Shown: positions 3,956 through 38,920 of the stretch, piece by piece
Numbering within the stretch: position 1 is the stretch's first letter
Layout: each line of letters starts with the position of its first letter
DNA from: Flavobacteriales bacterium
GTDB taxonomy: Bacteria > Bacteroidota > Bacteroidia > Flavobacteriales > Flavobacteriaceae
DNA: 50,628 nucleotides
Direction of reading: 5' to 3'
Assembly (NCBI GenBank): GCA_024641135.1
Contig: JAHEDS010000010.1
Span: 1 to 50,628 of the forward strand
Program-made: the position numbers and the translations under genes
The notes under the pieces: generated by a model
Seen by the model: the letters and a program-made list of their open reading frames with translations, nothing else
What the model was told of the DNA's origin: nothing
The model's database searches: none

Positions 3956-5305
3956 TTATTTAACTAGGTTAATTTCAACACGTCTGTTGTTAGCTCTACC
4001 TTTGCTAGTTTTGTTATTATCAATTGGTTTAGATTCACCATAACCTACAGATGAAAGTCTAGAACCGTCAACACCATTTGCTACTAAATAGTCTTTTACA
4101 GCAGCAGCTCTTGATTCAGATAATTTTTGGTTATTAGCTTCACTACCTGTACTGTCTGTATGACCTTCAACAGTAAATTTAGCATTAGTGTACTCATTTA
4201 AGATACCTACGATATCGTTTAATACACCTGCAGATTGTGACTTAATACTTGCTTTACCAGTATCAAATAAAATAGTTTTAGCATAAGCATTTAATGCAGC
4301 TTTAACAGCTTCAGTTACTTCAGGACAACCATTGTTAGCAACAGTTCCTTTAACATCTGGACATTGATCATCTTTATCGATTACACCGTCACCATCAGTA
4401 TCAGGCCAAGGACATCCTTTATTAGCAGCAGGACCAGCAACAGTTGGACAAGCATCATCAGCGTCAGTTACTCCATCGCCATCAGCATCAGGACAACCAG
4501 CTAAAGCTTTTAAACCAGCAACTGTAGGACATTTGTCATCTTTATCAGGTACACCATCACCGTCAGTATCAGGACAACCATTAAACTCAGCTAAACCAGC
4601 TTCATTAGGACAATCATCTTTACTGTCTTCAATACCATCACCATCAGTGTCAGGACATCCGTTGAATGCTGCTAAACCAGCAACATCTGGACAAGCATCA
4701 TCTTTATCATAAATACCATCACCATCAGTATCAGTTCCACCAAATTTGATAGAGATACCAGCAGTATGTTGGAAATGAGTAGATAAATAGTCTTCAAAGG
4801 CATGTTTGTAAGAAGATTGAACAGTTAAACCTACGTTTTCACTGAACCATAAATTGAAACCAAGAGTACCGTTTAAAGTACCAGCTCCGATGTCATCAAC
4901 CCAAGTGTAACCTCCACCAACGCCTACAAAAGGATCAAAAGATTTTCCTTCAAGGAAGTTGTATTTAATAGTACCGTCAACACCATAGTAAGATAAGTCA
5001 CTTACTTCAGCATCTCCAAATTTAGAGATTTTGTTTAAAGATCCAGCTACTCCAAAAGAGAAACCATCACTTAAGTATTTAGATACAGAGACTGATGATA
5101 CAGAAGGTAAAATGTTCCAGTGATCACCAACATTAAAAAATTCAGCGAACATATCTCCTTGAGGAGCATCTTCTCCCACTGGGTATAAATCAACTGCGTT
5201 TACCCCAAGGGTTATTTGCCAAGGGTTGTTTTTGTCTTGCGCATTAACGTTGCTATAACCAAGTACAAGCAACATAGCGAACAATAATCTGCTAAGATTT
5301 TTCAT
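3956..5305 (-). CDS. OmpA family outer membrane protein with thrombospondin type 3 (calcium-binding) repeats
   Basis: Signal peptide [23 protein letters not shown]; repeated DTDGDGxxDxxDxCP; C-terminal OmpA motif [30 protein letters not shown]. Start moved from ORF-track 5368 to the signal-peptide Met, because a TAnnTTTG box overlaps the longer start. Confidence 0.9.
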
Positions 5306-9898: not shown

Positions 9899-10507
9899 AT
9901 GGCTTTTGAATTACCAAAATTAGGATATGCATATGACGCTTTAGAGCCTCATATTGACGCTCGCACAATGGAGATACATCATACAAAACACCACCAAGGA
10001 TATACCAATAATTTAAATGCAGCAATTGCAGGAACAGCTCTAGAAAATAAGTCAATTGGAGATATTCTTTCAAATTTGGATATGAATAATGCTGCTGTAA
10101 GAAATAATGGAGGAGGGTTTTTCAACCATTCTTTATTTTGGAATGTAATGAACCCAGAAGGAAAAGGGTATTTATCTGGAGAATTAAAAGATGCTATTAT
10201 CGCGGCTTATGGTTCTGTAGATGCTTTTAAAGATGCCTTTAGTAAAGCTGCTGCGACTAGATTTGGTTCTGGTTGGGCTTGGTTGTGCGTACATAAAGGA
10301 GGAAAAGTTGAGGTTTGTTCTACTCCAAATCAAGACAACCCTTTAATGCCAGGAGTTTCTTGTGGAGGAACACCAATTTTAGGGATTGACGTTTGGGAAC
10401 ATGCGTATTATTTAAACTATCAAAACCGTCGTCCAGATTATATCAATGCCTTTTTTAATGTAATTAATTGGAATGAAGTTGAAAGGCGATATGCTGAAGG
10501 AAAATAG
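9899..10507 (+). CDS. sod: Fe/Mn-type superoxide dismutase
   Basis: [69 protein letters not shown] metal-binding signature. Confidence 0.95.
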
Positions 10508-10599: not shown

Positions 10600-10627
10600 A
10601 AAAAGGTGAACGAGAGTTCACCTTTTT
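10600..10627 (-). terminator. intrinsic terminator of sRNA copy 1
   Basis: Perfect 12-bp stem with 4-nt loop; minus strand ends in a T5 tract. Confidence 0.75.
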
Positions 10628-10668
10628 GCCCCAAATCTACCATGAACTTAACCTACTTATGTTATGGT
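10600..10668 (-). ncRNA. candidate small RNA, copy 1 (~69 nt)
   Basis: Minus-strand ACCATAACATAAGTAGGTTAAGTTCATGGTAGATTTGGGGC core (10668-10628), identical to copy 2, then terminator AAAAAGGTGAAC-TCTC-GTTCACCTTTTT; preceded by TTTG-N18-TACATTTG. Confidence 0.72.
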
Positions 10669-10672
10669 GATT

Positions 10673-10702
10673 CAAATGTATGCAGCTACTAACAACTACA
10701 AA
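10673..10702 (-). promoter_or_regulatory. promoter of sRNA copy 1 (TTTG-N18-TACATTTG)
   Basis: Plus strand CAAATGTA (10673-10680), N18, CAAA (10699-10702); -7 box ends 4 nt before the conserved core. Confidence 0.7.
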
Positions 10703-10797
10703 AATATTTTAGTTCAACTACTAATTTATTAGCTTAAAAGATAAACGGTATAGGTGTATTAAAGATGAGTAAATGGAGTAGAAGTTAAAAAGGGCAT

Positions 10798-10829
10798 AAA
10801 AAAAGGCGAACAGAAGTTCACCTTTTTTT
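10798..10829 (-). terminator. intrinsic terminator of sRNA copy 2
   Basis: 14-bp stem. The one divergent pair is a G-U wobble on the minus strand but a C-A mismatch on the plus strand, so structure is kept only in minus-strand RNA. Confidence 0.72.
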
Positions 10830-10870
10830 GCCCCAAATCTACCATGAACTTAACCTACTTATGTTATGGT
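10798..10870 (-). ncRNA. candidate small RNA, copy 2 (~73 nt)
   Basis: Same 41-bp core (10870-10830, 41/41 identical) followed by terminator AAAAAAAGGTGAAC-TTCT-GTTCGCCTTTTTTT. Confidence 0.7.
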
Positions 10871-10874
10871 AGTA

Positions 10875-10882
10875 CCAATTTA
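10875..10882 (-). promoter_or_regulatory. degenerate -7 box of sRNA copy 2
   Basis: Minus-strand TAAATTGG (one mismatch to TAnnTTTG) at exactly the same 4-nt offset from the core as in copy 1; no TTTG at the -33 position. Confidence 0.5.
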
Positions 10883-10890
10883 TACGTATT

Positions 10891-10960
10891 TTAGATAAAA
10901 GTTCTATTTTTTAGATAAAACGCATTTTTATTAGATTAAATGTAGTTTTCATAGATAAAG
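10891..10960. repeat. four-unit direct-repeat array, exact 20-bp period (consensus TTAGATAAAA)
   Basis: TTAGATAAAA 10891-10900, TTAGATAAAA 10911-10920, TTAGATTAAA 10931-10940, ATAGATAAAG 10951-10960, with T-rich spacers. Confidence 0.75.
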
Positions 10961-10984: not shown

Positions 10985-12883
10985 TTAATAGGCCCGTTTT
11001 TTGTTTCCTTCATAAAAATTAATAAATGCACGGTTAACAACTCTGTTTCCGCCTACTGTTGGGTAGTTACCCGTAAAATACCAATCACCCAAATGTTTTG
11101 GACAAGCCTTATGTAAATTTTCAACTGACTGGAATATTATTTTAATTTCAGATTTAACATTGTCACCAGTTAATAACTCTGCTATTTTATCCGAGATTTG
11201 TTCATCTGTAAACGGTTCATAAATTTCCTTAACAAAGTTTTTAACTTGTCTGTCTTCTAAATCTGTTTGAAGAATGCATTTATCATATACTTCTTTTACA
11301 ATGTCAAAGTTGTTTGATTCTTTAAGTAGCTCTAATGCAGCTTTAAAAGCAATTAAACTTTCAAGATTTGCCATATCTATACCGTAACAATCGGGATAAC
11401 GTATTTGCGGTGCTGAAGAAACTATAACAATTTTTTTAGGATTCAATCTGTCAAGCATTTTTATAATACTCATCTTTAGAGTAGTCCCTCGAACAATGCT
11501 ATCATCTATAATAACCAAATTATCAGTCCGTTTAATAACCCCATAAGTTACATCATAAACGTGTGCTACTAAGTCATCACGGCTACTGTCTTCTGTAATA
11601 AAAGTCCTTAGTTTAACATCTTTAATGGCTATCTTTTCAATTCGCGGCATTTGAGATAAAATTTCGGTAACCCGTTCTGCTGATAAATTTCTGCTTCCGC
11701 TTAGAATAGCTTTGGTTTTCTTTTTATTGAGGAAATCTTCTACCGATTCAATCATTCCGTAAAAGGAAGTTTCTGCCGTATTTGGGATATATGAAAAAAC
11801 AGTATTTTTAATATCCTTGTTAATAGCGTCTAAAACTTTTGGCATGAGCAATCTACCAAGCATTTTTCGTTCTTGATAAATTTCAGCATCACTACCTCTT
11901 GAAAAATAAATGCGTTCAAATGAGCACGCTTTTCGTTCTAAAGGATTTAATATTTTCTTAATGGCAGTTTTACCAGATTTTTTTGTGATAATAGCATGAC
12001 CAGGCTCCAACTCTTTAACATCTTGATATTTTACATTAAATACCGTTTGAATCACAGGACGCTCAGAAGCAACCACAACAATTTCATCATCTTTATAATA
12101 ATATGCTGGACGAATTCCTGCAGGATCTCTTAATACAAATGAATCTCCGTGACCTAGTAATCCAGCCATTGCATAACCGCCATCCCAGTTTTTAGCAGCT
12201 CTCTTAAGTATTTTAGCAACGTTTAAACGCTCAGCAATCAGAGGAGAACACTCATTTTTGCTATAACCTTCATTTTTTAAATCTTTATATATTTTGCTTA
12301 CAGAATCATCTAAAAAATGACCTATTTTTTCCATAATGGTAATAGTATCGGTATACTCCTTTGGATGCTGACCTAAATCAATTAGGTTTTGAAACAATTC
12401 TTTAACATTGGTCATGTTAAAGTTTCCGGCAAGAATAAGATTTCTGTGCTGCCAGTTATTTTGTCTTAAAAAGGGATGAACGCTTTCAACACTGTTCTTC
12501 CCAAAAGTACCATATCTAACGTGTCCTAAAAAGACTTCACCTATATAGGGAATATTCTTTTTTTGAAGTTCGACACTATCTACATATTCAGGATTTTCTG
12601 TAAACTCTTTGTTAATTCTTTGGTTTATTTGAGCAAAAATATCTTGAATAGGTTGTTGTGCGATAGATCTCACCCTACTTATATAGCGTTCACCAGGCTT
12701 TGTGTCTAATTTTATACTTGCAAAACCAGCTCCATCTTGACCTCTGTTATGCTGTTTTTCCATCATCAGATACATTTTATTGACTCCATAAAACGCACTT
12801 CCATATTTTTCTTTATAGAACTCTAAAGGTTTTAAAAGTCTTAAAACAGCAATTCCGCATTCGTGTTTTAACGCATCACTCAT
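10985..12883 (-). CDS. amidophosphoribosyltransferase-like protein (PurF family, 632 aa)
   Basis: N-terminal class II glutamine amidotransferase (HECGIAV...HNRGQDGAGFASI, GHVRYGTFG) and PRPP-binding VIIDDSIVRGTTLK. Confidence 0.85.
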   Translation of the reverse strand: MSDALKHECGIAVLRLLKPLEFYKEKYGSAFYGVNKMYLMMEKQHNRGQDGAGFASIKLDTKPGERYISRVRSIAQQPIQDIFAQINQRINKEFTENPEYVDSVELQKKNIPYIGEVFLGHVRYGTFGKNSVESVHPFLRQNNWQHRNLILAGNFNMTNVKELFQNLIDLGQHPKEYTDTITIMEKIGHFLDDSVSKIYKDLKNEGYSKNECSPLIAERLNVAKILKRAAKNWDGGYAMAGLLGHGDSFVLRDPAGIRPAYYYKDDEIVVVASERPVIQTVFNVKYQDVKELEPGHAIITKKSGKTAIKKILNPLERKACSFERIYFSRGSDAEIYQERKMLGRLLMPKVLDAINKDIKNTVFSYIPNTAETSFYGMIESVEDFLNKKKTKAILSGSRNLSAERVTEILSQMPRIEKIAIKDVKLRTFITEDSSRDDLVAHVYDVTYGVIKRTDNLVIIDDSIVRGTTLKMSIIKMLDRLNPKKIVIVSSAPQIRYPDCYGIDMANLESLIAFKAALELLKESNNFDIVKEVYDKCILQTDLEDRQVKNFVKEIYEPFTDEQISDKIAELLTGDNVKSEIKIIFQSVENLHKACPKHLGDWYFTGNYPTVGGNRVVNRAFINFYEGNKKRAY

Positions 12884-38068: not shown

Positions 38069-38920
38069 ATGAAATTGAAGAACTTTTTAATAATTATAAC
38101 AGCGTTATTTAGTGCGGTTTCTTTTTCACAAGAAAAGAAAGAACAAAATGTAATAGCCGAAAAAAAGGCGAATAGTTTTGTTTATGAAGGTAATCAACTG
38201 TCTAAGGAAGATGATTTTGTTGCTGCTGAAATGGAATACAGAAAGGCTATTTCAGAGAATGCCACTAATACAGCGGGCGCTTACAATTTAGCAAATGCCT
38301 ATTTTAAAAAAGGTGAATTTGAAGAAGCATTATATCGTCAGCAACAAGTAGTTAATACGTCTACATCTAAGGAAGAAAAGCATAAAGCATTTCATAATAT
38401 AGGCAATATTTTAATGCAAAATAAAAAATGCAAAGAGGCCGTTGAGGCCTATAAAAATGCATTAAGAAATGATCCAACTGATGAGGAAACGCGGTACAAT
38501 TTAGGACTTGCAAAAGAGTGTGCCGAGCAGCAAAAAGATAAGCAGGATCAGAATAAAGACAACAAGGATAATCAAGATAAAAAGGACGAGAATAAAGATA
38601 AGCAGGACGAAAAGGATAAGGAAGGGGATAATAAAGACAAGCAAGACCAAAAGGATAAAGGCGACCAAGACAAAAAAGAAGGAGATGACAAAAAAGACGA
38701 TGAAGGAAAGCCTAAAGATGACAAACAAGATCAGCAAAAAGGAAAAGAAGACAATCAAAATAAAGATCAGCAAAAACCACAACCACAACCCGGAAAACTA
38801 TCTGATCAGCAAATAAAAAGCTTGTTGGAGGCTATGAACAATCAAGAACAAAAAGTTCAGGAGAAAATAAATGCCGAAAAGCAAAAAGGTGTAAAAGTAA
38901 AAACCGAAAAGGATTGGTAA
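38069..38920 (+). CDS. batC: BatC-like TPR protein with long charged low-complexity tail
   Basis: Signal peptide, TPR repeats (AGAYNLANAYFKKGEFEEALY; AVEAYKNALRNDPTDEETRYNLGLA), then K/D/Q/E/N-rich tract. Confidence 0.87.
   Translation: MKLKNFLIIITALFSAVSFSQEKKEQNVIAEKKANSFVYEGNQLSKEDDFVAAEMEYRKAISENATNTAGAYNLANAYFKKGEFEEALYRQQQVVNTSTSKEEKHKAFHNIGNILMQNKKCKEAVEAYKNALRNDPTDEETRYNLGLAKECAEQQKDKQDQNKDNKDNQDKKDENKDKQDEKDKEGDNKDKQDQKDKGDQDKKEGDDKKDDEGKPKDDKQDQQKGKEDNQNKDQQKPQPQPGKLSDQQIKSLLEAMNNQEQKVQEKINAEKQKGVKVKTEKDW

Follow-up and report, generated by a model that had tools for sequence, protein, structure and literature searches.

We used sequence inspection, comparative genomics and covariance modelling to follow up a 20-bp-periodic array in a flavobacterial genome, and our analysis indicates that the array is likely a set of direct-repeat binding sites for a LytTR response regulator that would drive a pair of tandem small RNAs (sRNAs). 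Throughout, the window is the whole stretch of DNA that was analysed (50,628 nucleotides). To our knowledge, next to nothing has been established about what regulates flavobacterial sRNAs, and no description of this regulator-sRNA pair was found in the open literature.

A tandem sRNA family between purF and sod

The array lies upstream of the second of two sRNA copies, which are enclosed by two conserved genes:

9899 to 10507, plus strand: Fe/Mn superoxide dismutase gene (sod), the conserved convergent downstream neighbour
10600 to 10668, minus strand: sRNA copy 1, from sequence search, fold and covariance model
10797 to 10870, minus strand: sRNA copy 2, with a 5' hairpin, an unpaired conserved AGATTTGGGGC and an intrinsic terminator
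10985 to 12883, minus strand: purF, the upstream neighbour, also conserved and oriented like the sRNAs

Across the Flavobacteriaceae the family consists of tandem copies of 69-75 nt between purF and sod. The RNA has one 5' hairpin, the conserved unpaired AGATTTGGGGC and a terminator, whose stem varies freely in sequence while its pairing is kept; copy 2 itself is 100% identical in four congeners. A 74-nt sRNA query found matches in 30 of the 60 relatives, which with one exception belong to the same family, and an exact-core scan of named genomes returned at least 118 stretches, including Zobellia, Maribacter, Winogradskyella, Aquimarina and Flavobacterium. Among the matches listed, the order purF, sRNAs and convergent sod was complete in 80 of 118 loci, and at least one of purF and sod was in place at 113 of 118. 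With the covariance model, the sRNA was detected in 166 of the 201 genera sampled.

The family is absent from Rfam, where no entry recognises it: no Rfam family reached its threshold anywhere in the window, and relaxed thresholds gave sub-threshold, chance-like matches only. FopS (RF04319) of Bacteroides is likewise a multi-copy short sRNA family of the Bacteroidota (PMC11697453), but the sRNA described here is tandem at one syntenic locus and differs in sequence and host group. Its best score against RF04319 was 20.6 bits compared to a gathering score of 56, and because this falls short of the Rfam threshold the sRNA is not FopS. The Rfp RNAs of Flavobacterium psychrophilum, including Rfp18, are also conserved flavobacterial sRNAs (PMC9723704). 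Rfp18 is described there as pairing with its predicted targets through a third stem-loop, whereas the sRNA here has one hairpin plus the terminator, a comparison with the Rfp RNAs that is by description only.

Degenerate relatives of the sRNA core occur elsewhere. Seven loci (L162-L168, e.g., G000:C164:12700-13700 and G030:C2:79200-80300) carry two to four degenerate head-to-tail core repeats (..TTAAGTTCATGGTAGATTTGGGGCA..), mostly just 3' of an oligopeptide-type ABC transporter ATPase gene and in several genera. From their sequence, these look like a multi-site 3' UTR or a sponge-like RNA.

The four-unit array upstream of copy 2

The original prediction was of four units at an exact 20-bp step, and inspection of the sequence bears this out. 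TTAGATAAAA is perfect at 10891 and 10911, the unit at 10931 (TTAGATTAAA) has one mismatch to it, and the unit at 10951 (ATAGATAAAG) has two. Read on the minus (transcribed) strand, the units lie at -29, -49, -69 and -89 of copy 2, counted from the conserved first RNA base at 10870, a start site inferred from conservation. The promoter elements of both copies are as follows:

10673 to 10680, minus strand: -7 box of copy 1, TACATTTG, an exact TAnnTTTG match
10699 to 10702, minus strand: -33 TTTG of copy 1, found in no more than 3 of the 7 congeners
10709 to 10717, minus strand: box of copy 1 (-49), TTGAACTAA, from the sequence and 7 congeners
10729 to 10737, minus strand: box of copy 1 (-69), TTAAGCTAA, from the sequence and 7 congeners
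10875 to 10882, minus strand: -7 box of copy 2, TAAATTGG, after the Bacteroidota consensus TAnnTTTG
10891 to 10899, minus strand: box 1 of copy 2 (-29), TTTATCTAA, covering the -33 region
10911 to 10919, minus strand: box 2 of copy 2 (-49), TTTATCTAA, position conserved family-wide
10931 to 10939, minus strand: box 3 of copy 2 (-69), TTAATCTAA, position conserved family-wide
10951 to 10959, minus strand: box 4 of copy 2 (-89), TTTATCTAT, conserved at genus level

A row of four such units, each within two mismatches and at exact 20-bp steps, was found a single time in the window and in none of 40 dinucleotide shuffles; taken singly, TTAGATAAAA shows no enrichment there (30 matches found, 25.6 expected). 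The array is kept in related genomes, with all four units in register in 7 of 7 congeners. Within the genus, boxes and linkers differ only weakly in conservation (0.91 vs 0.86) and rotated masks score equally; by itself, comparison within the genus would not have sufficed to prove the boxes. The window also holds coding-type tandem repeats at 4433-4734 (81-bp period) and 38534-38676 (lysine-rich, 30/39-bp periods), which are unrelated to the array.

The core promoter of copy 2 is as the prediction had described it, with the -7 box TAAATTGG and GAAC in place of the TTTG that copy 1 has at -33. The -7 box is one position off the Bacteroidota sigma-A motif TAnnTTTG, and it was assigned to this class. 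We rejected the flavobacterial SM5 promoter, given as TAnnTTGY in PMC9723704, since TAAATTGG has no pyrimidine after TTG. From the start of box 1 to the TA of the -7 box is 17 bp.

Copy 1 has a degenerate two-box element of its own, 20 bp apart and conserved in 7 of 7 congeners. The proposal that one copy is constitutive and the other regulated is therefore not supported in this window, because copy 1 carries the same box pair. A real split of this kind seems, from sequence, to exist among the copies of the Maribacter/Zobellia/Muricauda group. There the tandem copy in last position is often boxless, with a conserved TTTG-N19-TAATTTAG promoter (L024, L027, L062, L071, L232, L234 and other loci), and for these reasons it seems constitutive.

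A family-wide two-box element

Alignment of 290 distinct sRNA copies on the RNA start revealed that, above the -7 box, only TTnAnCnAA blocks at -69 and -49 are conserved. Both boxes were present at five or more of six positions in 143 of the 290 copies, compared to 0.3 expected from shuffles. Where the step between them could be measured (163 pairs), it was 20 bp in 130 and 19 or 21 bp in 32. The core of the element is thus a pair of 9-nt boxes with an 11-bp spacer, centred at about -55; it stands before the majority of the sRNA copies in the family, and its most diagnostic base is a C at -64 and -44 (58% vs 17% background). Since this two-box element is family-wide, the array of copy 2 is, on the aligned sequences, a genus-level extension of it to four units.

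A composite pattern of boxes at -69/-49 plus the -7 box matched the host genome exactly twice, at the two sRNA promoters, and in 40 genomes every match with no mismatch was an sRNA promoter. The two-box pattern taken out of its promoter context was not enriched over a reversed control in seven genomes. Among dispersed sRNA copies outside the purF-sod interval (L155-L161), L156 and L157 retain the two-box element and the others do not clearly do so. In addition, the box-box--7 arrangement with one mismatch precedes two similar leaders, at L391 (G002:C110:2739-2801) and L393 (G003:C9:409031-409093); one of these leaders precedes a putative secreted protein, and the matches may mark a further target of the same regulator.

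The fixed columns of the alignment bear on a second reading in the original prediction, namely that the T- and A-tracts, which alternate with a phase of about 10 bp, curve the DNA intrinsically, and that this curvature takes the place of the -33 box. On such a reading no dedicated protein would be required. In its favour, an A-rich run does follow each box (-42 to -39 and -62 to -58), and all four units face approximately the same side of the helix. However, A/T-tract bending needs no conserved C, and the C at -44/-64 together with TT...AA in fixed columns disfavours curvature alone on sequence grounds. GC-richer relatives keep the boxes without long tracts (e.g., GTTCATCCAA and GTTTGTCCAA), and the same boxes recur at the promoter of one LytTR gene. 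We consider intrinsic curvature very improbable as the explanation of the array.

A priA-linked LytTR protein as the candidate regulator

The host genome (G000) encodes six LytTR genes, of which only one has such boxes immediately before its start. It codes for a 231-aa receiver-LytTR protein (PF00072 and PF04397; G000:C154:9560-10252; locus L151) and sits between rpsF/rpsR and priA, a context that recurs at a second locus, L395. The genome with L395 (G016:C22), where the regulator gene is in this usual rpsF/priA context, has no detectable sRNA and is a natural test case for other genes that the regulator may control.

The promoter of the candidate regulator reads TTTAACGAT-N11-TTTATCCGA, with boxes at -29 and -49 at a 20-bp step. 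The TA of the -7 box follows the start of the proximal box by 17 nt, which is the offset of the -29 unit in copy 2, and orthologues conserve the pair. A TTnAnC box 17 nt (±1) before the -7 box was found in 42 of 42 close orthologue promoters and, with a strict -7 pattern, in 10 of 31 distant ones. The background rate for such a box at that offset is 2.7%, and promoters of a control LytTR gene had it in 0 of 19 cases.

The position of the -29 unit, which overlaps the -33 region both in copy 2 and at the regulator's own promoter, is what might be expected if the boxes were repressor sites that silence the sRNAs. Against this, the family-wide pair at -69/-49 lies outside the core promoter. While the -7 box is strongly conserved in the 290 copies, TTTG at -33 occurs in 50 of them (21 expected), and it is rarer in box-bearing copies (24 of 194) than in weak-box or boxless copies (23 of 96), as expected for activator-dependent promoters. 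Two features favour activation: the -33 TTTG is missing more often from box-bearing promoters, and the pair lies above the core promoter. We regard silencing of the sRNAs as improbable. At the regulator's own promoter, the boxes at -29/-49 could equally mean repression. The proposal that the array units are activator sites is supported in so far as they look like sequence-specific regulator sites, at fixed, conserved positions above a promoter with a well-kept -7 box and a poorly kept -33 box; activation is the most likely mode of action. That the regulator binds the element, and that its binding activates, are both probable from the sequence data.

Co-occurrence of the regulator and the sRNA

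With an orthologue cut-off of E ≤ 1e-50, both the candidate regulator and the sRNA were present in 152 of 201 genera, the sRNA only in 14, the regulator only in 4 and neither in 31, an odds ratio of 84 for genera that are not independent of one another. For a control LytTR protein, the odds ratio against the sRNA was 4.5. Two of the genome's other LytTR proteins, the only ones used as controls, were rejected as the binder on account of their poor co-occurrence with the sRNA and the 0 of 19 boxed promoters, the latter for the one that was tested. On a control-gene tree the absences require about 10 changes, at least four of which are forced by well-supported branches, although the tree is poorly resolved and leaves many forks open; co-occurrence therefore does not stem from one shared loss.

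The boxes might instead be the sites of another regulator, either a different LytTR protein or one of the OmpR/AraC type; that the priA-linked regulator has them too would then be due to chance or to common descent. A spacing of two helical turns between direct repeats is not confined to LytTR proteins, OmpR/AraC-type proteins also use direct repeats, and the genome has five further LytTR genes. Furthermore, in 14 genomes that retain the sRNA no orthologue of the regulator passed E ≤ 1e-50. In G026, which is among the 14, boxes are still recognisable, for which a divergent orthologue, a gap or another binder are the alternatives. On the other side stand the presence of boxes just upstream of the priA-linked gene alone among the six, the recurrence of the 17-nt offset in its orthologues and in none of the control promoters, and the far looser tracking of the sRNA by the two other LytTR proteins. 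Another regulator is unlikely on balance, though less so than repression or curvature, and the priA-linked protein is our preferred candidate.

Comparison with known systems and proposed circuit

LytTR proteins bind two direct repeats of 9-11 nt with spacers of 11-13 nt (PMC4847170). The boxes here have this architecture, with 9 nt each, an 11-nt spacer and a 20-bp step in most copies. The -69/-49 pair is also placed as LytTR sites are, upstream of the promoter with a centre near -60, its own centre being about -55 relative to an inferred start. In Escherichia coli, YpdB binds GGCATTTCAT direct repeats (PMC4847170) that are close to the TGCATTTCATCTAA units found here (L246), and its target set is essentially dedicated, like that of the composite pattern. 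The YpdB target is the protein-coding gene yhjX, whereas here it is an sRNA family with a 20-bp step and up to four units.

Another parallel is AgrA of Staphylococcus aureus, a LytTR response regulator that activates both RNAIII and its own operon, agr, from repeats centred near -60 (PMC4227749). Both systems have upstream direct repeats, a regulatory RNA as output and sites at the regulator's own promoter. In contrast to AgrA, the candidate regulator is encoded on its own, and the loci read show no agrB/C/D-like genes beside it. The sRNAs are tandem and 69-75 nt long, and the match is by architecture only. Because the regulator is not in an operon with histidine kinase and peptide genes (L151, L395), the genomic context rules out membership of the Agr system.

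In the circuit that we propose, the priA-linked regulator would bind the repeats cooperatively on one face of the DNA and recruit RNA polymerase to promoters with a good -7 box and a poor -33 box, with the -29 unit of copy 2 standing in for the latter. Both sRNA copies would be switched on, copy 2 more strongly, as its extra units may make it stronger or more cooperative. Binding at -29 and -49 of its own promoter would give autoregulation, and the sRNAs presumably act by base pairing. We lean, by a modest degree, towards the wider view that this is a dedicated Flavobacteriaceae circuit in which an autoregulated orphan LytTR regulator drives the purF-sod sRNAs in more than 150 genera. It would resemble AgrA-RNAIII with a separate origin, and the numbers of copies and boxes would be tuned by lineage, with a single copy released from control in certain lineages.

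Flavobacteria play a major part in the breakdown of marine polysaccharides, and fish pathogens are found among them. For this group, the proposed circuit links one response regulator to one sRNA family in concrete terms that can be tested, down to the exact bases to mutate, and the box-bearing and boxless copies within one cluster amount to a built-in natural experiment.
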